Below, one piece after another: positions 15,527 through 57,300 of a DNA stretch of 64,000 bases. Both the position numbers and the translations under genes were made by a program. The notes below the pieces were generated by a model. The model did not search any database and was not told where the DNA came from. It saw nothing but the letters and a program-made list of their open reading frames with translations. How positions within the stretch are numbered: position 1 is the stretch's first letter; each line of letters starts with the position of its first letter. Source of the DNA: Chytridium lagenaria (lineage: Eukaryota > Chytridiomycota > Chytridiomycetes > Chytridiales > Chytridiaceae); assembly GCA_025449115.1 (NCBI GenBank), contig JAHLKC010000144.1:1-64000 (forward strand), given 5' to 3'.

Positions 15527-18500
15527 TTAAGTATCGCTGCTCATACTCGGCGGCGAACAGAAGAACGCGAGCATAAGAACAAAGTAAGCGAGTAGAAGCA
15601 TAGCGCCTTTAAAGTAATTCGACTTTCCCTCAATATAGAGGTACGTGACTGTAAACACCGAAAACAGCACAGCCACCAAATCCCAACGCGGGAAAACTAA
15701 ACTAAACGCGTCTTGTACAGGCGGGTTCGGCGTTGTTTCATTTTGCATTGCCGACACGATCGAACCCGACAAATGGTAACGATGGCATCCCACATTGGCG
15801 CCATCATTTTCTCAATCATTTGGAAAGGGAGACGGTGTTCGGGCTCAATGAACATGATGGGATCAAAGTCACTGCCACCGGTATGCGGGGGCTTGGGTCT
15901 CTTGGAATGACCACCACCAAAGATACGCCAGTATGCGGAAAAGGCGACGAGGATGGGGATCTGGAGGAGAGCTACTTGGATGGTGTATGCTGAACCGATT
16001 TCCAGGGATAGAGCAATGTTGCCTTGTTGCGCAAACGCAATGGCGTTGTCTGAAAAAAATTAAGAAATAATCAGTAAACTCCCATTATTTTTTTAAAAGA
16101 AAAAATTATAATGAGGCAATGTGCCTTTTGAAGTTGAAAAACACTTACAGAATTCAGTGACCGTAGGAACAATTGCAAACAACGTCAAGCCCAAAAACTT
16201 TTCGTCAATAGCCCAACCTCCTTCACCCCCTGTATTCCCAGTTGGCAAAACATGATCAACAGCGTCAATCAGAACCTCAGCAATCAAACTGAACATGACA
16301 GTAGCGCCCAACAGTACAATTGTCGATTTTGTCGAGTTCCAATTTGGGTTGTCGTGACCGCCATGACCACCGTGACCACCGTCTCGATGAGAAGAAGTAG
16401 AGGTAGGCTTTACAGGTTCAGCATTGTTCTCGGTTCTTGAAGGTGCATGCCGAGGCACTTCATTCGGTTGACCAGAAGCTCCGCCACCCAATGGAAGCTG
16501 GAGGGAAACAGCTCGAGCTCGGCTAGAGGGTGAAGAAACGCCGCGTTGTTGATTGCTTGGCCCGCAATCAAACCCTTGTTGTAAGCTGCAACGGCAGAAT
16601 TGGTAGTCTGCATGCCTGACGCAGCTCCCGAATGACCCAAGATAGAGGCGCGGTTGGATATCGGAGCAAGAGAGTCTGTGGCAGAGAGCAAATCGCTCTC
16701 TGAATCTGAAGACGAAGACGTTGAATCCCCAGATACAAAGTCATCAACCAAGGCGCGGTTAGAAGAATGGGTCATACTAGAGTTACGGAATCTCTGACCC
16801 CGGTCTTGCCCAGAAGAAGGTATGGCGATTTAACCTTGGCCTAGCTATGCTATGATGAGAGACCCCGGGATGAGCCTTTGGAGCCTGTTGGAAAGACGAA
16901 TGCCCATCCTCGATGATCCCCAAACCATGAACAGAGGTAAGGAGAGCCGACGGCGGCATTGGCGGAAGGTTTGCGCCATTTCCACGAACAGGTGAAACGT
17001 GAGCTTTACCTAAACCCGAGCTTGGAGTGTGGGAAACCCGAGTCCGCGGAGATGAACTTGGACTATTCCATGTATTCTTCAAAGCTGACATTGAGTTGCG
17101 ATGATGCGGCTTCCTTGATCTCAATCCAGAAAAGTCTGCTGAAACGGGACGATCGAGGCTTGTCAAAAGGGGAGTGTGACCATCTTTATGAGCAAAGCCA
17201 GGTTGACTATTACGATAAACGTCTTGATCATCGTGAACTTCTTCCCCGTTCCAGTCAATAATACGAATAGTCTGCAATAAAAAAAGTAAGTAAAATCACC
17301 CAAAAAAAATATTTTAAAATACCCTTCTGTGCTTCTTTTTGGTTTTGTAGATCCGCTTTGCGTGAGTTCGAAGGGTGAACCATAGTCCGATACCGTATAC
17401 CAAGACCAAAGCCGTTGCGCTGCCATACATCAAAGGTCTAGTATACCTCTGGTATATAGGGTCAAGCGTAGGGGCTGGCTGGTGGTATCGGCACGACTTG
17501 CACGAAAGTGCAGCTTGTATAGGTGACAACGAGGCTATTGGGAAAATCAAAGGGAAGGGAAAGTAGAATTAGCATGCACGTTTGCAAGTAAGGTTGAATT
17601 ACAATCAGAAGTATGCACTGGGCATTCCAAACATTGAAGCTCAAATGTCCCATAAACCTCTTGAAAGAGAGTTGGACCGAACACCCCAATAACAGACATA
17701 ATCAACATGGTGCTGGTAACCGTTGCCGCCTTTGAGTTGAACTTTTGTTCCTTCTTCTTCAACCCCCCAAAGAACATAGAAACCCCCGGAAGCGCAAGTA
17801 ATCCGGCCATGTAGCTCCCCACAATCGCGCCTTCAACCATTCTAGTCTTTCCTTCCATTAAGGCAAGGCAGTAAAGGATGACTTCGACAATTGAGCCAAA
17901 GGTGGCGTTTATCACCGCGCCCAATGCGAGGGATCCCGTTTCTGCCGTAATCGAGGAAACCGCCATTCCAATAAAGTAAGACAAGGGAATGACGGAGAGA
18001 AGCGCACAGCAGAAGATGACCGTGTAAGAACCTATACCCTTGTGGTTCAAAAGCGGGCCCAAGTAGTAAAAATCAAAGAGCGTAAAAATAACAACCGCCA
18101 TCAGATTGATGAACATTATGTTGACGCCGTCGACGGTGTACTATTTAAAAAGAAGATGGAATTAGAGATCCTTAATAGTCTATATAAAATCAACGAAAGA
18201 GACAAGGAAGCTAACCTTATAGTATTTTAAACCAATCGCATTGTAAGTGCATAGGACAATTAGATAGTCGGATGTCTCAAACTCCCAGTTCTCATCGTTT
18301 TGATGCCCTCGCTGTGTTGCAGCAGCAGCGCCAGTGTCAACAAAAACACTGACAGGCCGCATAATCTTCAGCGAAGCATCAGCCTTCTGCCCATGGCCTC
18401 GTACGTTCCCATCAGATCTTTTGGTTTTGAAGGCCATTCGACCCCCCGGTTGGTTGAAGAATAGGAGGAGTTCCTGGTGACATGAGGATCGAATTCATCA

Positions 18501-20504
18501 TCCCTGGAGGTGGAGACACCGTCGTACCACTGCTAGCACCTTCACCGCAGTTGTCTCTGGCAATATTGCGAATATCTTCATTATCGCTATCATAATCAAA
18601 TCCACTAGACATTCTAGAATGACCTGCTTGTTCGGCCCTCTCGGAAATGCCTCCTTGACGCCTCAAATCAACGTTCCTCGAACGTTGAACATTGGCCCAG
18701 TGCTCTTCCGGTGAATGCGCCGAAAGTCGGAGAGGGTGTCTCATGAGATGGCGCAAAAGCACATAATTGAGCTTTGCCATAGGAACAGATACGACAGCAA
18801 AGAAACAACATCCGGTAACTACCAGATGAAGAGGCGTCAAAGTGAAAAACATAACAACAGAAAATACGAAGCCAGCGAACCCTCCACTCTTAATACGCTT
18901 AATCCTTCGTTGCCACGATGTCAGATTTTCAGACTCAGGTATGTTAGCGTCTGGCCTCCGTCGTGGGGTGCCCCAGAAAGCGTTTTCTCCAGTATATGCA
19001 GGCCCAGCCGGTTCTCCATAGAATCATTCATATCTTCTTCGTCTGACGTGAGACCTTCAAGGTCTTCGTTGTCGTTAGTTGTTGAGACACGTCGGTATGG
19101 AGTACTGGTTCTTCTGACAGGCTTCGAAGCCTTTGCGCTCAAGTACCTTGCCTCTCCAGAAAGCTCTGGAGTGGTGCGTCGATGCTCACGTGAACTTCTA
19201 TCGGCGTGTGTATATCTGACGAGAGCAAAGGAGTGGTCTCGCTATTATAAATCTCGTCATTCCTAAGATTTCCTTCAGCGTCTTGGTCGTCCGCTCCACC
19301 AGGCAGTTTCGGATTGTACAGAGATACATGGATCCTCCGCTTTGCAATGAACTTGCCGAAAGGCCAAAATATATATCCAGAAAGATTTAAAAGGACCTAA
19401 ACGAAAAAAAGTTAGGTAACTTATCTTTTAAGATTAATAGATACCCTGCCATACTGCCATATCCTCCCCAACTCTCTCGCAAAGCGTGCGAGAGGTCCAA
19501 TAACTATCGAATCATATATCTCAGATGAAGGCTTGCAAGGAAATAGTATCCGATAGAGAATGAATAGAAGCCACGATGAACTCTTCCGACAAAAGATATG
19601 GGAGCGATTATCAATATTGCGACGGCCACGTATGAAAGCGCCATCCACCATCCAAATAAAAATACCCAAATAATATTGCCAGGGAAGAAAACTGTTGAGG
19701 TGTTCTCTTTCGGACGTCCAGGGACAGAATGCAAATCAGAGTAGGTGATTGCATTAATGGATCTATCCTTTTTATAAAGAGCTGGTTTCCAGATTTTCAA
19801 TCCAAAGGGATGAGATACGTTGATAGCCTAACAAGAATATAAAACAAGAAGAGAATCAGTAACAGACTTCCGGTATATCTTGACCTTACCTCTTGCATAT
19901 CCCTGACGGTAGCGTTACCAGAGGCCTCTCCAGAAAGAACTCGATCAGCGGCTTCCATTTTTAACTCCTCGGCCTCGTCTTCATTTAGCGGCTCGATCTC
20001 CATTTGCTCCGTTTCCATTCCGCCGTCGTCCAACGGCATGATGTCATCGTCTTGATCTTCCAAATTAACATCAACGTCATCATCAACATCAGCTTCGAGA
20101 ACGTCATCTTCAATGATCAACGGGGCCGAAGGCACTGGTGTTGCTTGCGCCCGCTGTTGAGCGGCCATGGCAGCCAAAAGTGGATTGCCGCGTTGCGGAG
20201 TTTTACTAAAGTCATCTCCGTCATCCATCGTCGGATCCATGTTGTCGTCATCAAAAGGAGTTGAAGGAAGAAACAGCTTCGGCATGGGATTCATGGAAAC
20301 TTGTTGCTGAAGCTGTAGGTCAACTGGTGTCCCCGGAGGATAGTTTCCTGGTGTGTGTTGTGACGGAGCGGAGGTTGTGGAGCCTGCGGAGGTGGGGCGG
20401 ACCCCATTCAAATCAACTACGGAACCATTCCCACGGCCCTCTCTGCTATTCCCAGCTTCATTCCCAACCAAATTGGTTGCTGATGGCCGTCCTGTAGATG
20501 GCAT
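15527..20504 (-). CDS. VNX1-like vacuolar cation/H+ (CAX-type) exchanger
   Basis: A large minus-strand, intron-rich gene starting MPSTGRPSATNLVGNEAG at 20504. The order is: acidic, disordered N-terminus; a domain with GNIIWVFLFGWWMALSYV (about 19660); a cytosolic Ser/Asp-rich stretch; membrane segments near 18840; then the first CAX alpha-repeat (about 17940-17800) with GSIVEVILYCLALMEGK and EGAIVGSYMAGLLALPG. A long loop follows, including the His/Gly-rich stretch GGHGGHGGHDNPNW. The second repeat (about 16310-15990) carries IVPTVTEF and NIALSLEIGSAYTIQ. The end is membrane segments KGAMLLLAYFVLMLAFFC. Known relatives (yeast Vnx1) exchange Na+/K+ or Ca2+ for H+ at the vacuole. Conserved acidic residues in both repeats are present. 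Several frame shifts occur (for example near 16490 and 16800). It is convergent with RNF10, about 120 bp apart. Confidence 0.82.
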
Positions 20505-21725
20505 GTTCTCGGGACTGGTTCAAAGGATCCCTTCTAGCCTACTTTTTGTTTAAAAAAAAGAAAAACAGTTATGCATGGAGGGGATTAAGTGACGCTTTAA
20601 AAAAAGTTTCATACGTCTCCGCTGGAGATTTAAGTCTGAAGGGAGCTAAGTACAATGAAATGGGATGGTATACAAGAGGCACGGGGAATGAAGGGAAGGG
20701 TGATTTTGAAGCCCCGACAATTAAATATTGACTTCTGTGAAAGGAAAAAAAAAATGAAGGGCGTCATTCGAGCATCGTTGCGCGATGTAGCCTGACGATG
20801 TGCATGCAACCGGCAGATGAAGGGTAATGCAATTTATTTTGGGCAAGTAAAGGGGGATCGACGTGTTGTATCTTTGGGATACCATATACATGTTGATGGT
20901 TGTTTGTTTGCTGTGTTTTGAAGGCAAAGATCATGAAACTAATCCACCATACGATATGCGTCATCACATCATTCTGGTTAGGTTGCCTTCTTTACGCTTC
21001 AATACCCGATAATAAGACCTTGTTTGGTGATGTCTAACTTTCTTTTCTAGAAGAGTCGCTCGACGACTCAGACGCTGTAGTTTTTGTGCTGTGTTGAAGT
21101 GTAAAAAACATTAAAACAATTGCTCCTTCTAAGGAAGTTCCATGGCGTTCTACATGCGACAGTTTCGCGCCCATCACCATCAGCCTTTCCTTCCTTCATC
21201 GTCTCCAGCATAAATATTGTACCTTGCGTTCTTGATATAGAAATGTAACCCAGAGCGAGAATCTCCGCATGAAAACAGCAAATCTCGTATTGTCCTTCAG
21301 AAACCACTCCTTTTTCTAAAGCGGTGCAAAAGTAAAAGATTGTATGGCGATGCATGGAGCAACTTGCTGTATTTATCAAAGAGGCGCCGCACATATCAGA
21401 TTTACCATCGAAATCGAAAATCGGGACTTTATAAAAGTACCTAAACATTTCTTTTTGGGTTATTAGAGCAACCGAACACGTTACAGCTGCTCATCTTTTC
21501 CCAAAACCTACAGCATTAGCTATGGTTGAAGAGCAGAATAAATATAAATGTCGATATGAACAGTGTCGATCCTATGAACGAGATTTACAGGACCTTGCAG
21601 AAATGGGTGTTTAAGTTAGGCGCGCCTGCTAGTCTGCTATTCAGCTACGGTATTAAAAACATCTCCTTTTTACCTCTCCTCTCGACCAATTTCTGGTTGT
21701 TACAGCGTGGATTTCGTTTAGCATC
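20505..21725. other. intergenic, no supported gene
   Basis: This is the region between the exchanger and the GPCR, which run divergently. A 126-codon minus-strand open stretch (21068-21448) has no recognisable domain and poor composition. No repeats or RNA genes were recognised. It presumably holds both promoters. Confidence 0.4.
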
Positions 21726-24700
21726 ATGAAACAGGGTCTCAGCTTAATCGCCCAGGCCCTCACGACCGCTCTACTGGTCGGCAGTCTCCTCCCGTCCATC
21801 TCAGCCATAGTCTCCAAAAAATGATCCAAGAACTATCGAAGTTGGGTATGGGTGCGGAGGATCTTGTCAAGCGCATTACCGATGGCTGATGCAGCAATAT
21901 GAGATTCAGAGACCGAATAACCCCGTCGTCGAGCTTTCTAACTTGGGGTTCACCAAACCTGCATTCTTAGCGTCACTATTTGAAATGAAAACATCACCAG
22001 ATGTGATGTCCATACTACCGTCTCAAGTTCGACAACTGCCTTTGTTGAAGGCAAACGCGTAAGTTCTGCTAACTCTTATTTAAATTGATTTTGTATAGAT
22101 TTGTCAATCTTACAGAGACATATCAAAAGTCGCCATATAATGAGTTTCCGGAGAATTACAAGAGAATCTGCCAATGTAAGTCTTTCTTTACTTCGGGAGA
22201 TATTGAGTCGATCTATAGACAGAGACTCTGCAACAAATTCTACAATGCATGTACGTCGTCTGAAGTATACATCCAATGCTGACATATAATAGTTTTGCAT
22301 TCCAGTGAACATTTACGCACAGAAACTCTTTTTAAGGTAACATGACGCGTGAGACAGTCAAAGGTGTTGGTAATTAACACGATTATTCCACAAAAAAGAC
22401 CATCCGTATTTGCATTTAATAACGTCTCCATCCCCACGACATTCGAATCCATGCTAGGTAATTATTTGTTCTTCGCAGCCGCTAATATCTTCCAGATGCT
22501 TGCGACGCCTTTGCGAGCCGCGGTAAAATTCTTTTCTTCTTCGGCATCAGACAATGGTTTCCGGTTCAGTATTACTTTACTACACTGTTTACCAGGCTTT
22601 GGGGAAGTGAACTTTATGAAAAGTTACTTTCTGGCAATCATCCATGGGTTTCACCAGAGGTCACCACTTACTATGGAGCATTGGAAGATGATGATTGACC
22701 GTCAATGCTTTGGAAATACCACTTACCAGCAGACGTTTGACTTTTCGTAAGTGTGTTCTATTACAGTAGAATACGGAGCGATTCACCAATCTAATACAGA
22801 TTACTAGGAACCTTTCAAGGTGGTGGGGAAGATCCGCTAGCATTTCCTTGTTCGGTATGACTTTAATGCCATCATGGTGAGTCTTCACATGTGTACTATT
22901 TGTCTTCTAGTCGACAATATCTGTTGTGAAAAAAGGTCCTAACTTCAATTCAAGGTACAATTACTACCGCTTTGATGGTCCCGAACCTCTCGTGAATGGT
23001 GATGTCCCGTCAATGCCTTTTCCAAGCATACGTAGAAATTTCCCAAGAGTCGAGATTCTGAGTGCAGAGGCTGTTGCCGTGAGCACACAGTCTCTAATAT
23101 TACCAGCGCTGTCGAAATGGCCGAGTCTTTTACCAACGCCAATGCTCATAGGCAGGGACTTATCAATGGTGGCGTTACATCGCCATTCATTCCAGGCACT
23201 GGTTCCCTTAACAATTCCGACTATCAAATGCTTAGTACCGCAGATCAGGTTGTCTTATGGTTTGACGGTATTTCCGGCGGGGAGTTTGCAGACGTTGCCT
23301 ATATGGTGAGCCAAAAACCACTACTGATTCCTTTTTTTTATGTTTTATACTCCCTATTCTTTGTACATGATTGATACTAACTAAAGTGCTTACCGCGCAA
23401 CAGTACTTTAGAGACTTTGTTTTGAATCAAACGACATGGACTCAATCCGCTAGAGTAAGGTGATTCTTTGGTAGCATCATCTTACTATGTTTCTTTAGGC
23501 TCTCGACAATCTAGCAACAGAGCTTTATCAGAGCACAACACCGCGTCCACTAGCCAGTGTAGATCTTTCTCGCAGCAGAAGATCTGGAAACAGCACCACC
23601 GCCTTCTTTATCGATCAAGCCGTTGTAGTTCTGACGCCTACTACAGGGAATGCCTTGATCTACTACACGATCGATGGTGCGGAACCTATCGCCGGGACAT
23701 CGACTCTGTACAAAGTCCTATTACTCTTTCAGCCCCAAGGACGTTTAATTCCGTTACGTTCCAAATCAAAGCCGTCTCTCTCAAGCCTGGCCTAAAATTG
23801 CATCCGCAACCACTTACTGGAGGTTACGGTTCAACGGAGCCAGCGTATGCAGCAAGGGATGTGCCTTTGGAACATGTGTTGATGATGATCAATGCCAATG
23901 TTCTGCCTTGCACCATAATGTGTTGTTTTCCAACTGCACAGAGGAGATCCCACAAGAGTTTTCAAGCCACAGTACTGTCATTGGGGCAGTGATAACTGCC
24001 GTCAATGCTATTTTGATGTCTGCTTACATCTTCATTGGTGTCGTTTTCGTAATTTACTTCAATCACAAGGTTTTGCGCGCCGCGACATCCATGTCTATGA
24101 TTTTGATTGTGGTTGGATGCTTGCTTGGATGTTCCGCAATCTTTTTTGTTATCCAAAAGCCGACAGAGTTTACTTGCAACGCAAGGCACTGGTTCGCGTC
24201 ATCTGGTCCGTTCTCCGTCTTGTCGTACTTTTTATTCAGAATAGCGTCATTTTTTCCTAACACCTCTATTTGTAAACAGGCTTTGGACTGATCTGGGGGA
24301 ATATTTTGGCTAAAGGATATCGTATCTATCGACTTTTTCAACAACACGAGCGGGAGGAGTATTATGATAGCCAACACGACCATTTTCCTGTGGAGTGGCG
24401 CGATTGTAGCCATCGAGATAATGCTCAGTCTTATCTACACTTTACTCAATGGACCGAAGCCTGTTCTTATTAGAAGGACGGGCTTTTTAGAGTGGACCTG
24501 TCAGTCTCAGAACGAGAGTTTCGACTTGATCATGATCGCTGCCTTTGTTGGTTACAACGCTTTACTCATCATTGGAGGCGTTATCATTGCAGTGATAACG
24601 AGGAACGTTGCCTCTGACTACAATGAGTCGCAGATTCTTGGATACACTACCTTTACGTTTACTATCGTAACGGTGGTGACGATTCCCATCTTTGCAGTCC

Positions 24701-25334
24701 CAGGTCTTTCTTACACGATCCGCTTTGTACTGTTCGCATGCATCATCTTCCTTCTCACGGAATCATCATGTTCCTGTTTTGCGGATCCAAAGTCATGAGT
24801 ATCGCTAAAGACGCGGGTGTCATGAAAGCGAAGGGAAAGTACCTCACAATTCGAGCCCGTGTCGCCAACAAGCTTAAAGGGCAAGGATAAAGCCGCGTTG
24901 AAGGATGGAGAGACTAAAACCGAGACGCATCTCGTCACCAAGCTCTTCTGTATGCCTCCAGGTGTTGCGTCGAGGTGGATTGAATGTATGATTATCCGTC
25001 ATCCCTTGCAAGATCTCCTTCTGGTCGCCAACCATGAGCGTGGGACAGGGATCATGACGGCAAAAGTCTCTCAATGCGTTGTTTCAATATTCAGACTAGG
25101 GAGACATCAAAGGGAGTGACGGTTGTTACTGCTATTTTGCAGAGCGCTGGGAAACAAAGCTTGAAGGTTCAGGCTTCAGATGAAGAAACTTTAAGGAATT
25201 TGCTCGTTATGCCTGCGGGTGCTGCAAATGTTGGGAAAAGTGCGGGGCAGAGCAGTGCCGGCCAGAACTCTTCTGTTGGTCAACGCGAATCAGTGAAGGT
25301 GGGCACCGTCAGGACCAGTGCAATTACAGAGTAG
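21726..25334 (+). CDS. class C G-protein-coupled receptor with solute-binding-like ectodomain
   Basis: The start MKQGLSLIAQALTTALLVGS (21726) is a signal peptide. The ectodomain resembles extracellular solute-binding proteins (TKPAFLASLFEMKTSPDV; FVNLTETYQKSPYNEFP). Near 23610-23790 is a chitobiase/hexosaminidase C-terminal-like beta domain (VVLTPTTGNALIYYTIDGAE). Then comes an EGF-like cluster (CSKGCAFGTCVDDDQCQC, about 23858-23911). The 7TM region of the metabotropic-glutamate/GABA-B type runs about 23980-24780. It contains VFVIYFNHKVLRAATSMSM, PTEFTCNARHW, KGYRIYRLFQQHE, EIMLSLIYTLLNGPKPV and NESQILGYTTFTFT. A cytoplasmic tail runs to the stop at 25332. The family signals through heterotrimeric G proteins; the ligand is unknown. 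About ten short introns are present. Single-base frame breaks occur (for example near 21822 and 24475). A relic paralogue lies 0.6 kb downstream on the other strand. Confidence 0.8.
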
Positions 25335-31444: not shown

Positions 31445-34066
31445 TCACTCCTCCTCCTCCTCCTCCTCGGCTGTTTTAAACCACTCTACAAGAGGCAAGC
31501 ACTTCTTTTTAACACCTTCACTCACACCCCCACCCTCACACCACCTCAAAAACACATCTTCCTCCACAAGATCGGCATCATAAAGGTTCTTGAAAACAAG
31601 CGCAGCCTTTTTCATCAACCCAGCAGTACGTTGCATAGCTTTATCCCAAGCTTTCAAAAAAGCTGTTTGGTCCGCAGTGGTTCGGATATACTTTTAAAAA
31701 CAAGGTCAGACATACTGAAACGCGAGATGGGAAGAAAAAAAAAAAAAGAATCTTTGAAGAGAGACCCGAAAAAACATAATAAAACAAAGAATCCTCACCT
31801 GTCTCAAAAATGCCTTCCTTTCCATCAACTTCCCCGCCGTGTACTCCTCATCAAAAAGCGCATGAATAAGCACGCTAAACACCTGTGCCTTGGTCAAGTC
31901 ATGTTTGAACTCGACTCTGGTCACTTCCTTGGTTTCTTCCGTCATCGAACGTCCACCTGCTGGGGCCGCAGCGAAATACTTTGAAAGCTCGGCAATAAGG
32001 TTTTCCTCCACCTTTGTGTAGCGAATAGGAATATGAGGAGTGGTTGGGAGGGACGGGGCTGACAGGGTTGGCGTGGGAAGGGCAGAGGGGATGGGGGAGA
32101 CAGACGGGGACTGGAAAGGGTCGCGAAGGGAGAGGTCGGCCATGTTGGGACTAATGTGGAGGAAATCGGTTATTTATTAGTTATCGCCCACTTTAGAAAA
32201 GCACAGCATTATAGAATTGTGGAGAAAAGACCATACCTAATATCACGGACAGGAACCTCAACAATGCGGCTATTCTTCTTGCCATACTGGAAAAAAAAAC
32301 AAAACATTAATTAAATATTCAAACATAGAAAAAATTGCACCCATCAGACGGAAACCTCGCAAATCCAAGAAAAAAGTATAATACCTTATCACCCTCCATT
32401 AAATCCTTCAACGAGATATTGTCATTCTTCTTCCCATTCTTCTTCCCCCCTACCATCACCACGTTCGCCGGCACGCTGTTCAGCACATGATGTTCAACCT
32501 TCGCAACGGTAGGCTGCACTGGAGCCCCCTCCCAAGCCTCCCCACCATTCTCAGCTCCAGTCACAGAAACAAGTGGTGCAGGTCTCGTCCTCAACTCATC
32601 AGGGTTATGAGCAAAATTACAACGCGGTCCATATTGACAGAAATTTTCCTTGATGAATCGCTCGCAGAGACGCGTCTTGTAAAGGGGGTTTTCGGGGCCA
32701 TCGCCTTTTTGCTCGTGTTCTCCGCCGAAGCTGGCGCGATCGCGGAGTTCCGTCTGTATGGGAGATTAGAATAGAATTATGGTAGACCAAAAAAAACAAC
32801 AAAATGGACATGAATAAGGGAAGAAAACTAATTGAAAAGACAAATAGGGACTCACAGTTCCATGAGCAAACGTACACCTTCCTCCATAAGGGCAAGTCCC
32901 TTCCGTCTCATACCTCTCACAAAGCCTCGTCTTATAAAGCGGATTATCCGCCTGCGACGTCTCATCCTTCCCCTCAACTTCAGGTGCAGGATAAGCACCT
33001 TCACCCGCCCCCGACCTCCAACTCTTTGATCCATTCGGCGCAAACACCAATCGCTTCTGATCTTTATCACCCAAAGAAAGAGGTCCCCTGACTACATTCC
33101 CATCTTCCCCAATGGACATAGACATGGGTTTGCCAGGTTGGGTCAACACTCCCCTTGCTGTGTTTGATAAAGCCGTGCTTCCTGGAATCCCACGCCCTTC
33201 ACGGCGTCCACGGCCGGAATCTTCTCCGTCTTCAACATGACGACCCCTACCACCCTGTCGCCTTCGGTCGTGCGTAGACCCAGGGGCACGATTTCGTTCC
33301 GTATTTCCTTGTGGAAGGGCTTCTCCGCCGTGTTTCCACCTTGAATATAACGGTTGGAGGAGGGCATGGGAGACGGGACGCGAGTTTTAAGGAGATCAAT
33401 GTAGTTATTGGCTTGACGGAGGGCGTCTTGCATGTTCTTGTACATGGCCTTCTCGGTTGCCTGTAAAAGATTGGTAATCGTGAAAGGGCAAAGTCTTTAC
33501 CTGAGCTAGTGGAAGCCATGCCATGTTAAGGCCTGCTAGACCACTGGGAATGATGCGTTCCTTGGACGCGATGGAGGCCACGAAATAGGCTACATGTTTT
33601 GGGGTTGTGCCAGATAAGTACTGGAAAAACGCGGTTAGATGCCTAATTTTTGAATGAAAACGTTACTTTGATTTCAATACGAAAAGATGAATCAGTGATG
33701 TTTGATGCTCTTGGCGGAAAGTCCAGTGATGTCAACGGTTTCTCGGATAGCGCACCTAAGAGATGTCTGTAAATATCGTACTGACCAAGAAAGAAATGAA
33801 GAGACTCACTTGACTTCGTCTTCGTTACCAATGACCTTCCCCTTCGGAGGAGCCCAGTGCCGTTTATTGGAATAAGAGTCGTTTAACAATAGAAATTCGG
33901 TGGATCGCTGAATCGAAAGAGTTAGGTTTAAAGAGAAAGATATTTTATAATAGCTCACCTGGATCCGATACAGAATAATGCCTGAGACAAAGAGATGTTA
34001 AGACCATTTACAAAACACAAACTGAAACCCCTTCCTTCACTCACCAGCATATCTACCACCCTCCAT
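31445..34066 (-). CDS. Nudix - tandem CCCH zinc finger - W2 (eIF5C) fusion protein
   Basis: Splice-consistent start MEGGRYAGIILYRIQ (34066; introns GTGAGT...TCTCAG and GTGAGC...ATTCAG). An Ap4A-hydrolase-like Nudix domain follows: WAPPKGKVIGNEDEVK then CAIRETVDITGL, and AYFVASIASKERI. A Ser/Pro linker precedes two CCCH fingers, YKTRLCERYETEGTCPYGGR (about 32930) and YKTRLCERFIKENFCQYGPR (about 32650), each followed by C.F/NFAH. A low-complexity linker leads to a C-terminal W2 domain as in eIF5 and eIF2B-epsilon (TADQTAFLKAWDKAMQRTAG; EEDVFLRWCEGGG) with a terminal acidic Glu run. Parts suggest RNA binding and contact with translation factors; the combined function is unknown. The Nudix box has Asp-Ile where two Glu are usual, so catalysis may be lost. 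A single-base shift lies near 33690. Confidence 0.8.
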
Positions 34067-36885
34067 TCAAAATCCTCTCCGGGAGTTACTTATTAATTAA
34101 GTTGACAAAAAAACGACGGACGGAACAGGTCTCTAAGCGAGTCTATTGCAGAAAAGAATAGTTAATTAAGTGTGAAAGACAAAAGGGTGGAGGGTAGGCA
34201 AAGGTGGTCAAGTTTCTGCATTAACTTTTCGATCGTTTTCCATTCCATGCAAATGCCTTTCAAATCCCATGCGTCCAAGGTCCATAAGCCTTTAGGCCCC
34301 TCTCGATGACTTTGCGTCAGCTCAGACCAATCCACAGAGTTTGATGGACACAGGAGGCTAGGCATGCAAAGTGGGGGATACAAAAGAAACAACCATACGA
34401 ACCGGTTTTCAACCAGTAGAGACGGGAGTGGTCAAGAAACGTTGACGAGTGGAGACACAATATCAACACCGATGAAGAATTGTAATGGGGTGTGTTGATG
34501 GATAGAAAGACGCCCTTTGCCTCAACTCTAACGTACCTTTTTCTCGAATGTGGAGCAGTTTTCGATGGGATTTTTTTTTGGACAAAACTGAAACCTTGTC
34601 CCTCTGACTCAAAGTGTACTCAGTGTTGAGGAAGGAGGTGACGACTATTGAATCGAGATGGCGGATTTGTGGACGTGTAGGCGTATAGAGAAGGTAATCT
34701 TCTGTATGGGAGGCGTTGCATAGGTCCGGCATAGATCTCGCACGTAGTTACTCGTTCATTCTCTTTCAAATGAGGGTGGAACAAGGTGTCAAGTTTTCTC
34801 TCATCCATGGATCCGAGTCCTGACCTGCTCCATATCGCTTACGAGTCTAATCCCGTCTTAGATGAAATGCTGGAGGTGTGCGTACTTATATCGCTTTATT
34901 CTTTCCAGTCTGTTTCGCGTAGACTTTTAATTCAAATCGACTTTGAGGTTAAATCAGTGAATTATGGGCAAAGGCTTTTGTCGTTCGATTTAAAAACTGT
35001 CCGTAGCTTATGAACCCTAATTATCGTAACAAATAATAAAGGTAAAACACTTTCAAGATAGGCGTCGTCTGTAATGCGTAAAAGCATAAAGGTCTTCGGA
35101 ACAGAAATTGGCTAAAATACTGCGCGTTCAGATATCGATATACCACCTTGTTATAACAAAAAACCTCATAAAACAAGTAAAAAATGCCTCTAATCCGTAT
35201 AGTCTCTATTGCCATTCTCATCGAACACTCCCGGTACGTCATTGCTTGCGGATGACGCTATAAGTATGGCAAAATGCTGCTTAAAAGGGTTCATCCAAGA
35301 GAAGTTAGGACGTTCAATTGCACGGTATAGGACATCAAGATCCTAAATTTCCTAGGATATAGAACCAGAGACGCTGTAATTTGGTGATCGGCATTAAAAG
35401 TCGGTCCAGAACTTGGTATGCCTGAGATGAAATGGTTTCTTGGCTTACATGGTTGTTCCAGCTATGGGGTCGGATAACATACCTGTGCTCCTATCTGGGC
35501 GTCTGCCGAGACGACAATGACCTAATGCATCAGCACCTGCTGTCTCTTTACAGAGATTAAAGTTCCTGGACGTCCCATCCTTACACATGGATCAAGACCA
35601 GCCCAGCAGGATGATGAGAATGCTGTATTATGGATGAAGTGCCCTCATACCGTGAGAAAAGCAGATCGATACGAAGTTGATATCGACATGGTTGACCAGA
35701 ACCAAAGCAAAGCAGTCATTACAAGTCATTCACGACCACCTGTCAACGTCTTTCTTGCTTTGGCGTCTGTTGTGTCAACGACAAGGGCCTTGGCGTTGCA
35801 GCAAAGCAGCGCAAGGGGCAAAATGCCATCGTCCGTTGTTATCGGACGTGGTGTCTTTCTCTGCTTGACGACTGGATGGCAGATCTGAATAAGAGGCGAA
35901 ACGTAAATACGTTACAGCAAAACAAAGTATAGCAGCTCTTTGTCTTGACCTGGGAGGGATTTATGTACTTAATGTAGAAGTAATTAATGTTGATGGTCCT
36001 CTACGATAACATCGTTTGAGAATGCATTTATTCGCCTCGAGCTCACATAAATTCGACTGCCTTCATTCTGTGGGTGTTCATTTCTACGAACGTGAAATAC
36101 GCGCTCTTGTTGTCTCCTTTTTGCACGCGTATTGTTACGCGTCTTGCTTTGGGTCAGCCACCATTTTTCTCAAGGGTATCTCTTTATTACGCAGATCCCA
36201 TCTTTTTTTCTTCCACACAAAAAAATTATTTTGGAGAGCAAAGCAAAGAAGCTCCCGTTTTTGAGGGTGTCTTGCATGAAGGTGGAAGAAGCTCCCTCAT
36301 CCAAGCGCGTTTCTGGATCACCAGCTCCCCCTGGATCCTTGCCGGTAAGAGCAGTACCTTCCCTTTCCCTTCCTTCGCCCTGATCAAAGCCCGTTCCATG
36401 GGATGACTCAGGCATTGCTTGTACCTTTGCTTGTCCCTTCACGCCGTCGCCATCCTCGCCATCACCTCCTCTTGCATGCAGACGTTTTTACTCCTTATCA
36501 TTACGATGCAGGATCTCTTTGATCTCTTTTGAACGGAATGAATCCGCAAGACATCTTTTCTTATTCTTTCTTGTCCCGCAGCCCATAACCTGCACAAATC
36601 ACCCAAATCACCATCCTCCCTCTCCTCAACTCCTCCTCGTAGATCAGTTTTCATCACATAGTTTCTAAACGCGATGCTGTCTTGTCTTGCTCTCCTATTC
36701 CACTGATCCCTTCATTCTCTCTGCCCCTTTGATCCATTCTTCCCATTATTTTTGCATCGTGTAACTGCTTACTGTCTGGCATTTCGGACAGCTTCCAAGC
36801 GAGCAGGGGGACCCCATGCTTTTCCCGTTTTTCTTCCTCAACGTCCTCTACCAAGCATGCAATGCCATTTTGACTGCGGATTTGC
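34067..36885. other. 2.8-kb region without a recognised gene
   Basis: Open stretches exist on both strands (for example 35634-35888 plus, 36439-36657 minus) but none shows a domain, consistent splicing or convincing composition. No terminal inverted repeats, tRNA or tandem arrays were seen. A decayed mobile element or a long non-coding transcript leading to the hairpin cluster is possible. I see no direct evidence for either. Confidence 0.35.
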
Positions 36886-36893
36886 TATAAATA
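36886..36893 (+). promoter_or_regulatory. TATA box upstream of hairpin cluster
   Basis: TATAAATA lies in a stretch otherwise rich in C and T, followed by a pyrimidine-rich, AG-poor leader. The first hairpin begins 96 bp downstream. No protein-coding ORF follows, so a polymerase II start for a non-coding primary transcript is a reasonable inference. Confidence 0.4.
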
Positions 36894-36981
36894 CCCCACC
36901 AAATCCCCACTCACCTCCTTCATCACAACTGCCTCATTCATCCTACCTCACTCATTCCATTCCCATCTAAGACCCTTGGAT

Positions 36982-37074
36982 CGACGTTCTCTAAATACTA
37001 AGCGACTTCTCGCCGTATCTTGCAACTTTCATAAATTGGATTGGCAACGAGTAACTTGGATTTGGAGAACTACG
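36982..37074 (+). ncRNA. hairpin unit 1 (microRNA-like precursor candidate)
   Basis: The 5' arm from cgacgttctc (36982) pairs with the 3' arm (37050-37074, starting AGTAACTTGG and ending GAGAACTACG). Mismatches and the bulged A of AAATAC lie at the same places as in the other units. The stem continues inward to GCC/GGC with a C-C mismatch. The terminal loop is the longest of the five (about 25 nt). The position just before the invariant arm forms a U-G pair (37008/37049). Confidence 0.6.
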
Positions 37075-37146
37075 CCCTTGGATTCATACTTGAATTTCCC
37101 ACATCCCCATCTGACTTTTTTTTTGGTTCTCTTGGCCCTTTTTGAT

Positions 37147-37227
37147 CGACGTTTTACAAGTACCAAGCATACTTCTTCCTACTCCCTCATTTGGTAGGAG
37201 CAAGTAACTTGGATTTGGAGAACTACG
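37147..37227 (+). ncRNA. hairpin unit 2
   Basis: This is the longest stem: GATC/GATC pairs extend it 3 bp outward (37144-37230), and CCTAC/GTAGG closes it inward around a loop of about 11 nt. The 3' arm 37203-37227 is identical to the other four units. The pair preceding it is U-A (37174/37202). Confidence 0.65.
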
Positions 37228-37274
37228 ATCGCCAGAAGGCGTTCCCCTGACTTCATTTATATTCTCGCTTTCTT

Positions 37275-37356
37275 CGACGTTTTTCAAATACCAAGATTAC
37301 TCCTTCCACTGCGAATAACTTACCTGGAACGAGTAACTTGGATTTGGAGAACTACG
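37275..37356 (+). ncRNA. hairpin unit 3
   Basis: The 5' arm cgacgttttt...ccaag pairs with the invariant 3' arm 37332-37356. The stem continues through TTACTC/GAGTAA, a C-C mismatch and TTCCA/TGGAA to a loop of about 16 nt. The pair preceding the invariant arm is C-G (37302/37331). Confidence 0.65.
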
Positions 37357-37411
37357 GGGTTTTAGCCCATTCTTCTTAGGATTATATAGTTTACTGCAAT
37401 TCCTGTCGCGG

Positions 37412-37493
37412 CGACGTTCTCTGAATATCAAGATTACTTCTCCCGCTGATTTTTTTTTTCACGGAACAAGTAACTTGGATTTGGAGAACTACG
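37412..37493 (+). ncRNA. hairpin unit 4
   Basis: The 5' arm cgacgttctc...tcaag pairs with the invariant 3' arm 37469-37493. The inner stem TTACTT/AAGTAA gives a U-A pair (37439/37468) where unit 3 has C-G. A C-C mismatch follows as in the other units. The loop contains a T10 run. Confidence 0.65.
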
Positions 37494-37520
37494 GACGTGT
37501 ATATGGACCGCGTTTACTTA

Positions 37521-37587
37521 TAGTCTTTGTTCTATATACATGCCATCATTCTATAGTCTTTTTTCTGTATATATGCCATCATTTTAT
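37521..37587 (+). repeat. 33-bp imperfect direct repeat between hairpins 4 and 5
   Basis: Two adjacent near-identical copies begin tagtctttgt (37521) and tagtcttttt (37554) and share atgccatcatt. They make up nearly all of the longer spacer between units 4 and 5, a local tandem duplication. Confidence 0.7.
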
Positions 37588-37671
37588 CGCTGTTTTTAAA
37601 TACCAAGTTGACTCCTCCTCGATACCTAAACTTCTTGCCGTGGACGAGTAACTTGGATTTGGAGAACTACG
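37588..37671 (+). ncRNA. hairpin unit 5
   Basis: The most diverged 5' arm (cgctgttttt...ccaag) is still complementary to the invariant 3' arm 37647-37671. The inner stem has one extra bulged G, then C-G at the covarying position (37614/37646) and the shared C-C mismatch. Confidence 0.6.
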
Positions 37672-37703
37672 AAAGAATATTGGCCTTTATCAATAAATTG
37701 TCT

Positions 37704-37745
37704 AGTCTACTCATAAGTGTATTCAGTCTACTCATAAGTGTATTC
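37704..37745 (+). repeat. 21-bp tandem duplication
   Basis: agtctactcataagtgtatt plus c occurs twice, back to back (37704-37724 and 37725-37745), shortly after the last hairpin. Confidence 0.8.
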
Positions 37746-38212
37746 ACTGTCTTATCATTATACATATCGCCTCTGCAACTCTAACGTCGAGAATGATTTA
37801 CAAACTAATGCTATCCAGCTATTATTCCTTGATATCTGCGACGTAAAGTTCTGCACGTTTCTTTTTGTCGGGCGCTCTAGCAATCCCCATGAACCCTAAG
37901 TCAGCTCTTCTTGCCTCTCCCACCTCCATTGGAATGTTCTTACATGTTAATGATAGTATCAGTCATGTCCGTCCTTCGTTTCTTTAATTCTGCGTATCTT
38001 GCACAGTTTGACAGTTATGGTTTAGAAACAGCGTTTGTAGAACTCTCTGTCCATTAAAGATACTAGATTTGAATACCGTATTTGATGGAGAAAAGATGTA
38101 TATTTGATGGAATCGCAATATGTAGCTGAAGTGACGAAGGCTGAAAAAGCTTGATCATTTATAAAAAGATATTGGATATATATGCACTCTAAAATCCCTC
38201 AAAAAAATCTCA

Positions 38213-38284
38213 GCCCTTTTAACTCAGTGGTAGAGTGTCAGTCTTCTAAACTGAAAGCCGTGAGTTCGACCCTCACAAGGGGCT
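38213..38284 (+). tRNA. tRNA-Arg (anticodon TCT)
   Basis: A full cloverleaf can be drawn: acceptor 213-219/277-283 (one G-U), D-stem ACTC/GAGT, and anticodon stem TCAGT/ACTGA with loop CTTCTAA (anticodon TCT at 38245-38247). The 5-nt variable loop is followed by T-stem GTGAG/CTCAC with loop TTCGACC. There is no intron. A-box (TAACTCAGTGG) and B-box (GTTCGACCC) match RNA polymerase III consensus, and a T-rich terminator follows within about 15 bp (ttttttgttttttttt). Confidence 0.95.
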
Positions 38285-38518
38285 ATGCGGTTATGTTTTT
38301 TTGTTTTTTTTTAGTTGTTTCTTCATACAAAATTGCCTTTACATCAACACCGAACAAGAGATACGGATGATACTTATGATGAAGACTGCGGTTAACGTAG
38401 CCAAAACAATGAAAGGTATATGGAGGCAAATCAGAAATTGCAGGACGATACTGCATTAAACTTATTGATGTATCTGCACACATGCGTTAGCCTCTTGTTC
38501 GTCTATAGATTTAATTTA

Positions 38519-39085
38519 TCAAGTAGTATTCATATTGCGAGCCCCTCCCTCCAGCAGCAAACGTGTGTACAAGCGCGACCCTATATCCTCCACAATGTCC
38601 CCATTCAATTCAATAAAGCCGAGCCCAACACTCCGCTGGAACACCCCAAAGTACAAAATAAAGTCGAATCCGGGATATTCGTATCTGAAAATGGCCTCAT
38701 GCTCACTCGGGGTATCGACGAGGCGTAGGTTACCGAATGTCTCTCCCTTTTTCAAGACAAAGGTTTGTGGATCTTGTATCGTACTTGACAGTTTCCGTTC
38801 AAGCCAATAGGCGTTTGATCCAAAGACACTTTGCACAAAGATGGTGAGGGGGTCGGTGGATGTTCTTAGGAAGCGGCTGTCTAGATTGCGTTGGTAGAAA
38901 CCCCAAGTAGGAGGCTTCCTCTTTGCTGACGATGCTGTTGCAGTGCATTCCTTTACTTTGCTGCTAAAGCTCTTTGGCGTCTCATCGAGGGATGACGTCC
39001 CCACAACACGACGGATGTAAAATGCAGTCCAGATGACGCTAGCAACTGGTAGTCCCGTGCCTATGAGAAACAGACGTCGCCGCAT
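38519..39085 (-). CDS. unknown 188-residue membrane-anchored protein
   Basis: An uninterrupted minus-strand ORF starting MRRRLFLIGTGLPVASVIWT. Three arginines precede one hydrophobic segment (residues about 4-24), which suggests an N-terminal anchor or signal. The rest (residues about 75-185) looks like one folded alpha/beta domain: FVQSVFGSNAYWLERKL, then FGNLRLVDTPSEHEAIFRYE, then a C-terminal Arg/Leu-rich helix. Its layout resembles small fungal proteins of unknown function, but I cannot name the family. It is divergent from the phosphodiesterase gene (240 bp between starts). Confidence 0.6.
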   Translation of the reverse strand: MRRRLFLIGTGLPVASVIWTAFYIRRVVGTSSLDETPKSFSSKVKECTATASSAKRKPPTWGFYQRNLDSRFLRTSTDPLTIFVQSVFGSNAYWLERKLSSTIQDPQTFVLKKGETFGNLRLVDTPSEHEAIFRYEYPGFDFILYFGVFQRSVGLGFIELNGDIVEDIGSRLYTRLLLEGGARNMNTT

Positions 39086-54508: not shown

Positions 54509-57300
54509 ATGTCGCTTCAACATCAGCTTCCGGCCAAGCCGAATGCAAGCTTGCCCGCAGTCGAGGACGACCGCCTCGGCGGAGGTAGGGGAAAGTTTAA
54601 TCGCGAGAGAGATGAATCTAGCGGATATGCCAGAAAGGATTCATTCGGTCGGGATAGCAGGGAACCACTAGACCGCAAAAGACGGGATCGTTCGGATAGT
54701 CGAGATGATGGTACGGATCCTGCTAGATGCCTTTTTGATATCGTAGCTATCTTTTTGTTTTAAGCTGAATTTTCTTCTATAGACAGAAGGAAGAGGCGGC
54801 GGTCAATGTCGCCACGGTCCCGCGGCGGTGGTGGTGCTGGTGACGGTAACAAATACGTTCCAAATTACGACAGGGATGGATATATCCCGCCTCCTCGCTA
54901 CAATGGCGGGGCCGGCGGAATGGCTCCAGTCCACGGTGGATATGATTCTGTTAACATAAACTTTATGGATCAGGAAATGGACGCATGTTGGTTTTCTTTC
55001 TTCTTTCCTTTAATTTTTCATGTTACAGAATACTCACTTTTTTTATCAAAGGAATAAAATCGATGATCCTATTGACTTGGACTATCAGATGTCTTTCCGT
55101 CAGTTTATTGAATTCTCAAAATTTAAGCACCGTGAGTCTCGTGCCCGAGGAGAATTGGACGATGAGGAGATTCGCAGACGGTTCCAAACTTATAAGGACA
55201 AGTATCAGGTTAAGATCTTGACCGCTTTCTTTGACGAGCATAAAGGATCAGAATGGTAATGTTTTGCGACTTATTTTTTTAAAAGCTGGTCTGTGGTGCT
55301 AAAGCTTAAATTTTAATGCAGGTTCCGTGAGAAATACCACCCCATTGACTCCCTTCCTCTGCGTGAGGAGGTCCATAAAAGGCAGAAGAGCTTTTTCCCC
55401 AACTTCCTGGACGATATCAGAGCCGGGAAACTTGACGAGATTTCGTTTGATGAGATACCTAGTTCTACCCCTGCTACTGATGCTGTCGAAGATGCCAAGC
55501 CTGCGGATATTATGGATGCGGATGATGCCGAGGTGCCAAAAGAAGATGAAGGGACAGCTCCCGCTGGCGCAGCGGCTTCGACGCTTTCACAAATGCCTAC
55601 TGCAAACCCAGCCGTTTCGCATTTCAAAATCTCCGCGTTGTTCCTCAAGGCGGTACCGCCCACTGTTAAACGTCAACAACTTATTGAGGTTAGTCTTTTT
55701 AAGAAGAGGCATTTTAGATATCATTGCTCACATTGTTTATATATATTTATAGATTTGTAAGAAGGTTGAGGGGTTCTCATATTTGGTCATCAGTGATCCT
55801 CGTCCCGACAAAAAGTTTTACAGATTAGGATGGATAGTTTTTGACGAAGGAGCTGATCTTGAGAAGGCTAGGGAGGAGTTGAATTTGAAAAAAGTAAGCC
55901 ATTCTTATCATTACAATGTCTTACCCATCTTACCCATATTTAGATTGATGATTTTACACTCAACCTTGCACCCCACAACAATATGACAATCCGAAGTCGC
56001 CTTCTTCCTGCTGAATTTAATTCTCCGGAGCGGCTAGAGCGTGATTTGGAGAATGCCCGACGCCTAGTCAAGGCTCTTGATCAGGAGGCTGGATTAACCA
56101 GATTGAGGGTGGTGCTATTGAAGCCATCGAAAGTCGCCTTCAGGATATTGTGTTTAAGCAGGAGGCATATCAAGAGCCGCACAAGGAGGATGACCGCATG
56201 GAGGATGATGAGGAGCATGCAGCTTTAGATCGGGCTGTGGATGGACCTACTCCGGTGTCTACAAAAAAAGTGGGTGTATTTGATATTTTGGAATTTACGT
56301 TCTAATGGATTGTTTACAGACAAAGCTTACTCTGGATATTCTTATTGAATACCTTCGTCGTGTCCATTGGTACGACTTCTACAGCGGCGTCGAAGCTGAT
56401 GGTCCGGAAGACTTTTGCCGCCGTGCCTGGGTCCATATTCGCAAGGCATTTAGCGGCGCCGAGATTGAAAAGGATGCAACCAACTCTAGGCCTTCTCACA
56501 AAAAGTCTGATTATCAGCACTTCTCGGAGCGCCTGGATTCCCGCGTCGCACTCCGTACCCTCGTACTTTCTCCTGGATCCTGGGGAGGCGAGGAGCTTGA
56601 AAAATTGGTGGGAAAAATCCAGAGGCAGAAGTTGACCGGATTCTCACTACCAAGCATGTCGCTAAAATCGAGTCTGAAAAGTATCGATGCAAAGATTGTT
56701 CAAAGTTGTTCCGTGGCGAGGAGTTTGTGAGGAAGCATATCAGATCGAAGCATCCCGAGGTGGTGAAGGAGTTGATGGTGGATGTAGACTTTTATAATGC
56801 TTACGTAAGGGATCCGAATCGCGCGCATTACGCGTATGGTATGCCCAGTGCTACTGGCGGTGTGGGCGGTGCTAGTGGAGGCATTCCTAATTTTGGTGGG
56901 TCGATGAATATGCCGGGTGGAGGAAATCAACCGTCTCCGTGCCTACGGTCTGGCCACCTCCCATGCCCCCCATAATGATGGCTGGCGGGCCGTTGGTGAT
57001 GGGAGCTACTGAATGGGTTCCTGGAGGCGTTGGATATTATAATGGAAGGGAACGAGGCGGACGAAGGATGTATCGTCAAGGCTTGGGCCTCCTGCTCCAC
57101 GTGGTGGAAGAGGTGCTGGTGGTGGAGGACCTCCTCCTTCTAGGTAAGCGTTAGCGTAGATTATTTTACTTTTCTCTTCCGACGCTTTCCTGGCTATTCG
57201 CTAATATTTTAATATGAGTAGGAATATGCCTGTCGACCCTCGCTCACGCAACAGGATTGTTTACGATGATCTAGATGCACCCCAAGGGCGAGAATATTGA
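54509..57300 (+). CDS. ARS2: ARS2/SERRATE homologue (nuclear cap-binding partner)
   Basis: Order: Arg/Ser/Asp-rich N-terminus (RRSMSPRSRGGGGAGD); SFRQFIEFSKFKHRESRARG (DUF3546-type block near 55090); FREKYHPIDSLPLREE; VSHFKISALFLKAVPPTVKR; FYRLGWIVFDEGADLEKARE (RRM-like); LDILIEYLRRVHWYDFYSGV. A C2H2 finger follows (YRCKDCSKLFRGEEFVRKHI with RSKHPEVVKEL, about 56685-56780). A Gly/Pro-rich tail ends RIVYDDLDAPQGREY (stop 57298-57300), matching the conserved ARS2 C-terminus. ARS2 links the cap-binding complex to small-RNA processing, snRNA export and RNA decay; that role is inferred. Introns are short. The frame is broken by single bases near 56093, 56611 (A run), 56940 and 57080, in a gene that is usually essential. 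Confidence 0.9.

Follow-up and report, generated by a model that had tools for sequence, protein, structure and literature searches.

Clustered microRNA genes of animals and plants contain several paralogous hairpins that give the same mature sequence. The criteria applied to microRNAs in these lineages include a guide:passenger duplex formed on the two arms of the hairpin with no more than about five unpaired guide bases, and further the precise excision of 20-24-nt RNAs, a star strand with 2-nt 3′ overhangs, dependence on Dicer, loading into Argonaute and the existence of complementary targets. In fungi, according to the portions of PMC9757828 drawn upon here, fewer than half of 1727 reported microRNA-like loci reached basic standards, and nearly all of the top-tier loci are lineage-specific. 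A tier 1 milRNA is defined in those portions as intergenic, conserved between genomes and supported by small-RNA reads; 25 loci are given as conserved in several species, and likely paralogous loci with the same small RNA are described in two strains of Fusarium oxysporum; when the most abundant small RNAs in the libraries of different species were compared by a simple search, no conserved sequence emerged. The words chytrid and cluster are absent from the main text of PMC9757828 in the same portions, and a search by title and abstract opening, in which subscription papers and preprints are thinly covered, showed no report of a chytrid microRNA among the papers listed. Here we describe an array of hairpins in the chytrid Chytridium lagenaria, located in a stretch of 64,000 nucleotides that was analysed as a whole (contig C144, positions 1-64000, hereafter the window), and compare it with these systems.

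Hairpins of the window and the pairing of their arms

The window carries on its plus strand five identical copies of the 25-mer AGTAACTTGGATTTGGAGAACTACG, which start at 37050, 37203, 37332, 37469 and 37647, exactly where a preliminary description of this DNA had placed five identical 25-nt elements. Each copy forms the 3′ arm of a hairpin of 83-95 nt (A1-A5; Table 1) with a predicted minimum free energy of −24.3 to −29.2 kcal/mol, and the hairpins of about 80-93 nt first proposed are thus borne out by the predicted folds. The predicted stem has about 11 lower pairs, a fixed bulged A and five further pairs; above these it is looser and closes with a loop that varies, and the bulged A keeps its one site in all ten hairpins of this array and of a sister array found elsewhere in the genome (B1-B5). 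Comparison with dinucleotide shuffles gives z values of −3.9 to −7.6 for A1-A5 and −3.1 to −5.5 for B1-B5, the observed energy being reached by none of 500 shuffles except for B1 and B2 (one of 500 each), and in 10 of 10 hairpins the plus strand is predicted to give a better fold than its antisense. Comparably strong single hairpins are common in the window, where 186 of 8522 folded 90-nt segments reach at least 26 pairs with a minimum free energy of −22 or lower, so that folding by itself is little proof and the case must rest elsewhere. What is beyond chance, as judged from the letters of the two arrays, is the conjunction of a repeated identical arm, a partner drift that is mostly of the wobble type and the existence of the sister array.

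Table 1. Positions in the window of the five hairpins, the upstream promoter element and the neighbouring tRNA gene
Feature	Position	Strand	Details
Hairpin A1, 95 nt	36980..37074	+	5′ arm 36986-37002; invariant core 37050-37071
Hairpin A2, 83 nt	37145..37227	+	5′ arm 37151-37167; core 37203-37224
Hairpin A3, 84 nt	37273..37356	+	5′ arm 37279-37295; core 37332-37353
Hairpin A4, 84 nt	37410..37493	+	5′ arm 37416-37432; core 37469-37490
Hairpin A5, 86 nt	37586..37671	+	5′ arm 37592-37607; core 37647-37668
TATA-type promoter element TTTGCTATAAATACCCC	36881..36897	+	also found at the sister array and at two U2 snRNA genes
tRNA-Arg (TCT)	38212..38285	+	downstream of array

The arms of the window array follow one another at spacings of 153, 129, 137 and 178 nt; as these are not all multiples of three, a repeated peptide or other coding repeat was ruled out. 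No stop-to-stop open reading frame of at least 130 aa occurs at 33387-38521, and the array is intergenic as far as can be seen, an untranslated exon or an intron being possible. Short tandem duplications of 33 nt and 21 nt lie at 37519-37587, in the spacer before A5, and at 37704-37746, just after the array.

The proposal that the 3′ arm is fixed and the 5′ arm drifts yet continues to pair is upheld by the alignment of both arrays. A 22-nt core, AGTAACTTGGATTTGGAGAACT, is identical in nine of the ten hairpins (arm positions 1-22), the tenth, B5, differing at positions 15, 16 and 18 and carrying four changes within the 25-mer as a whole. Position 23 is A in eight hairpins and T in two, and positions −1 (C) and 24-25 (CG) are invariant. 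Position 0 immediately precedes the core and is occupied by A or G; in most units the letter that faces it on the 5′ arm has changed in step (columns 32/80: C-G in five, U-A in three, U-G in one, unpaired in one). The core is bounded by the variable positions 0 and 23, an arrangement that would fit precise excision without showing it. Identity falls to background from 1 nt past the 25-mer on the 3′ side and declines across some 5 nt towards the loop; in the loop and beyond position 25 pairwise identity is mostly 0.2-0.4, with some columns beside the arms higher. The putative mature arm is therefore better conserved than the loop and flanks while the hairpin is kept, as is asked of microRNAs, here within one genome and across an ancient duplication.

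The drift of the partner arm is also unevenly distributed. In the nine hairpins with an unchanged core, the 16 paired columns of the lower 5′ arm vary in 10 of 10 cases opposite G or U against 0 of 6 opposite A or C (Fisher p 1.2e-4). This test was made first on 17 lower 5′-arm columns, and its extension to the whole core, where 11 of 12 columns opposite G or U vary against 2 of 9 opposite A or C, weakened the p value from 1.2e-4 to 0.002. B5, with its changed core, was excluded from the column test and entered with its own letters in a test of individual cells, for which A1 was aligned by hand with one gap; over the ten hairpins 196 of 208 cells pair, wobble pairs occupy 24 of the 118 cells opposite G or U, and a T-to-C or G-to-A change occurs in 0 of the 90 cells opposite A or C. 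In a MAFFT alignment 91.4% of 279 cells pair, against at most 54% when the arms are slid, and the covariation score was reached by none of 500 shuffles and the number of double-change cells (10) by two; pairs changed on both sides (5; 50 of 500 shuffles) and further pair types (21; 82 of 500) were not significant. Related sequences inflate such covariation counts, and the wobble asymmetry is the stronger test, as a bias in mutation would be expected in the two kinds of column alike. The core changes of B5 are GG to TT and G to A, and all three changed positions still pair; the TT faces a partner GG, so that these pairs are kept as G-U, and B5 is perhaps a second guide sequence. At the loop-side end of the core, among the nine hairpins, unpaired letters account for the variation in two columns opposite A, with 3 cells in each, and for a single cell in one column opposite U; pairing is looser there, which counts against the explanation favoured below. 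Since columns opposite G or U drift by wobble and those opposite A or C rarely vary, pairing acts in RNA and on the plus strand. The 3′ arm is, as far as the alignments speak, read by its sequence, its partner being kept by RNA-level pairing on that strand, and the comparative case for RNA at the level of the single hairpin is strong.

Sister array, duplicated block and promoter

The genome searched comprises 41.9 Mb in 356 contigs and holds one other array, on the minus strand of contig C118 (match 74006-74521), with five hairpins, B1-B5, within 73835-74565. A 24-mer with up to three mismatches has nine sites in the genome over both strands, five in the window and four on C118, one of the latter with one mismatch. 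No third array was found by DNA similarity search of the genome, and a covariance model applied to the examined loci recovered the ten hairpins and their antisense and no others. The preliminary description had held that a palindromic repeat or transposon end dispersed through the genome would speak against its reading, and the genome-wide searches found two arrays only. A DNA-level inverted repeat, a transposon end or an array of protein sites homogenised by gene conversion would also present identical DNA repeats with an inverted partner; however, such an element is confined here to two loci of the genome, and, with the flanks at background identity, conversion tracts would have to stop near the arm edges in every copy. 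The drift moreover tolerates G-U and not A-C, a difference of strand that a DNA cruciform would not make, and we consider an origin at the DNA level very improbable.

The arrays lie inside a duplicated block (window 16300-25050 versus L012 1548-8210), relative to whose genes the array and the tRNA are inverted. On the window side the block includes sodium/calcium exchanger domains at 16.1-18.1 kb, one of two above the cut-off, and a class C GPCR domain at 24.3-24.8 kb. The exons that align at 22.5-24.8 kb are identical at 260 of 348 residues and at 41 of 120 fourfold-degenerate sites; at the latter value neutral sites look close to saturated, and the duplication would be ancient. The block may be the trace of a large duplication within the Chytridium lagenaria genome. 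A mixture of two species in the assembly, by which the arrays would be orthologs, was considered and rejected, as the seven matches to the RNA polymerase largest subunit fall in three genes, as one would expect of a single species. When A1-A5 are paired with B1-B5 in order, this assignment ranks first of 120 in three of four choices of region (the choices overlap), but only 35th of 120 on the flanks alone. The one-to-one order does not hold equally well for every unit, B2 being a better match than B3 for A3. The array of five hairpins is, on this comparison, probably older than the duplication of the block.

Alignment of the upstream regions of both arrays led to the recognition of a shared TATA element. 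Its 17-bp pattern, TTTSCYATAAATACCCC, has four exact matches in the genome, namely the two arrays and sites on C34 and C223 that belong to U2 snRNA genes (RF00004), the U2 5′ ends lying 36-37 nt past the TATA start. When up to one mismatch is allowed, the pattern has 7 sites in the genome against 3 for a reversed control; the one-mismatch sites are C46:250207, C59:116293 and C63:96908. By analogy with the U2 genes, the transcription start of the array may be inferred to lie near 36922-36923, and the promoter, being of the U2 type, is presumably one of Pol II. The pattern is absent upstream of the one U1 gene examined, of five U1 matches, so that the element may be called U2-like but not, on the sites compared, a general feature of snRNA genes. 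The tRNA-Arg (TCT) gene also follows the sister array, a case of microsynteny, and is probably not part of the array unit.

A promoter pattern held in common with two U2 snRNA genes would also suit small, stable RNAs of the nuclear or nucleolar type, 80-95 nt long, that work as whole hairpins. However, over 36.0-38.5 kb no family of Rfam 15 other than tRNA rises above its gathering threshold and the array has no U2 match, a C/D or H/ACA layout was not seen by eye, and the loop is unconserved; such RNAs are thus distinctly improbable here. Five weaker Rfam matches, including one to mir-651 on A5 (20.3 bits, cut-off 106), were dropped as chance.

A proposed model for the array, with its machinery and possible targets

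The components that a small-RNA pathway would call upon are encoded in the genome. PIWI gives 17 matches and RdRP 13, each set grouped by reading into six loci, and the RNase III matches represent two Dicer-type genes and one single-domain gene. The Dicer-type gene on C45 has a Dicer dimerisation domain and RNase III domains, and that on C2 has helicase C-terminal, Dicer dimerisation, PAZ and RNase III domains. Over its PIWI part, an Argonaute on C347 scores 292 bits to human Argonaute-2 versus 151 to Neurospora QDE-2, and in sequence alignment it retains the slicer residues D-E-D-H, at what we take to be the positions of the tetrad; among the 120 of 3655 matches listed, most named chytrids have a relative of it at 70-92% identity, with lower values in some. 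Joined into one query, this Argonaute matches a Chytridium lagenaria protein with 99% identity along the length of the query. An ARS2/SERRATE gene lies in the window, with PF04959 at 56595-56828 as the sole genome match found and SERRATE_Ars2_N at 55317-55757 barely above cut-off. Its presence, noted in the preliminary description, is confirmed, but the bearing on the hairpins suggested there is not, a shared contig being no evidence. The window also encodes a cytochrome b5 protein, which is nearest, itself aside, to proteins of Dinochytrium and Phlyctochytrium.

The present data allow a model in which the U2-type promoter would give rise to one non-coding transcript that holds the five hairpins, promoter and hairpins being recognised by sequence and transcription proposed from them. 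Dicer would then make one cut close to the base of each hairpin and another about 22-25 nt further up, all five hairpins would yield one 3′-arm guide, about AGUAACUUGGAUUUGGAGAACU, and this guide would be loaded by Argonaute. The guide may repress RNAs by partial pairing, or its target may lie outside the assembly, which is the weakest step of the model. Five hairpins per transcript, in two arrays, would supply a higher dose of a single guide. A family of Dicer-processed, microRNA-like RNAs with the guide on the 3′ arm is, in our assessment, the best explanation and a probable one. In the predicted structures the first 20 nt of the core contain 0-3 unpaired bases in 10 of 10 hairpins, as a guide:passenger duplex would. 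It counts against the model that the stem below the internal loop, under the paired arm, is only two base pairs long and offers no obvious cue for a lower cut. The guide/passenger reading of the preliminary description is thus well supported, at the level of sequence, by the fixed and the pairing arm, the sister array and the U2-type promoter, and the term microRNA itself is what we infer from them.

The preliminary description had also called for a search for antisense targets of the 25-mer. Over the whole genome and both strands, no contiguous antisense or sense site with up to three mismatches to the arm was found outside the two arrays, so that a near-perfect target was not obtained, and with wobble and two mismatches allowed the genome gave 137 sites, own sites included, versus 157 for a reversed control. 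In 145 kb that took in the window and the sister locus together with the loci for Dicer, RNase III and Argonaute, no target rose above shuffled guides, the best score of 7.5 being equalled or exceeded by 133 of 200 of them. The core 22-mer was not found in a prokaryote genome collection; the core 19-mer occurs in three viral contigs, with the same surrounding sequence in the parts compared, and was taken as coincidence. As no target stands above control, the guide would act by partial pairing or on something outside the genome.

Two alternatives bear on this outcome. It is possible that the arrays encode an undiced, structured non-coding RNA, in which a protein or another RNA would bind the invariant arm, repeated five times for avidity. 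The sequence data would fit equally any RNA whose 3′ strand is read, and the want of a near-perfect mRNA target in the genome agrees with such a role. However, if a protein read the helix, one would expect the structure, or else both strands, to be maintained, and not 22 letters of a single strand with a partner that drifts by wobble. Nor did the search of the genome reveal a complementary RNA (up to three mismatches) encoded at another site; we regard this possibility as unlikely. Alternatively, the locus may be a hairpin siRNA locus whose guide is aimed outside the genome, at a host alga, a virus or a parasite, as the control level of endogenous targets would allow and as the trans-species roles of some fungal hairpin RNAs, discussed in the portions of PMC9757828 used here, would lead one to consider. 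However, a core unchanged through an ancient duplication would suggest a steady target and not an arms race, and a guide of this kind seems improbable.

The Dicer-processed microRNA-like family, if true, would constitute a strong genetic case for a fungal microRNA system, with a held guide, a wobble-drifting passenger and a defined promoter, and it would provide one 22-nt sequence to seek in any chytrid small-RNA library and bear on whether microRNAs had a single origin or several. A wider claim would be that of a deeply conserved microRNA family in early-diverging fungi, to which the same-guide arrays of five hairpins, the U2-type promoters, an age greater than that of the large duplication and an Argonaute strongly conserved among chytrids could be referred; on this we are evenly divided. 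Were it true, microRNA genes in the animal and plant sense would not be absent from fungi.

Comparison with known systems

The array can be set beside three known systems. Like the microRNA clusters of animals and plants, it consists of short hairpins close together on the same strand, in which one arm is fixed and the other drifts while pairing, it has a paralogous locus with the same, here putative, mature sequence, and Argonaute and Dicer genes are present in the genome. Unlike those clusters, it belongs to a chytrid, is without a long lower stem of the Drosha type, repeats one putative guide five times in a single array and carries a U2-type promoter. The resemblance to the fungal milRNAs of PMC9757828, as they appear in the portions used, lies in short hairpins without a long open reading frame, a host that has Dicer, Argonaute and RdRP, and a hairpin size near that of animals. 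In contrast to those milRNAs, nine of the ten paralogous chytrid hairpins have kept one core through an ancient duplication, and since the between-species search described there found no shared mature sequence, a family held for so long would appear unusual among fungi, as far as those portions of the source extend. With the U2 snRNA genes (RF00004) of the same genome the array shares the 17-bp promoter pattern, whereas in Rfam it has no match to U2 itself.
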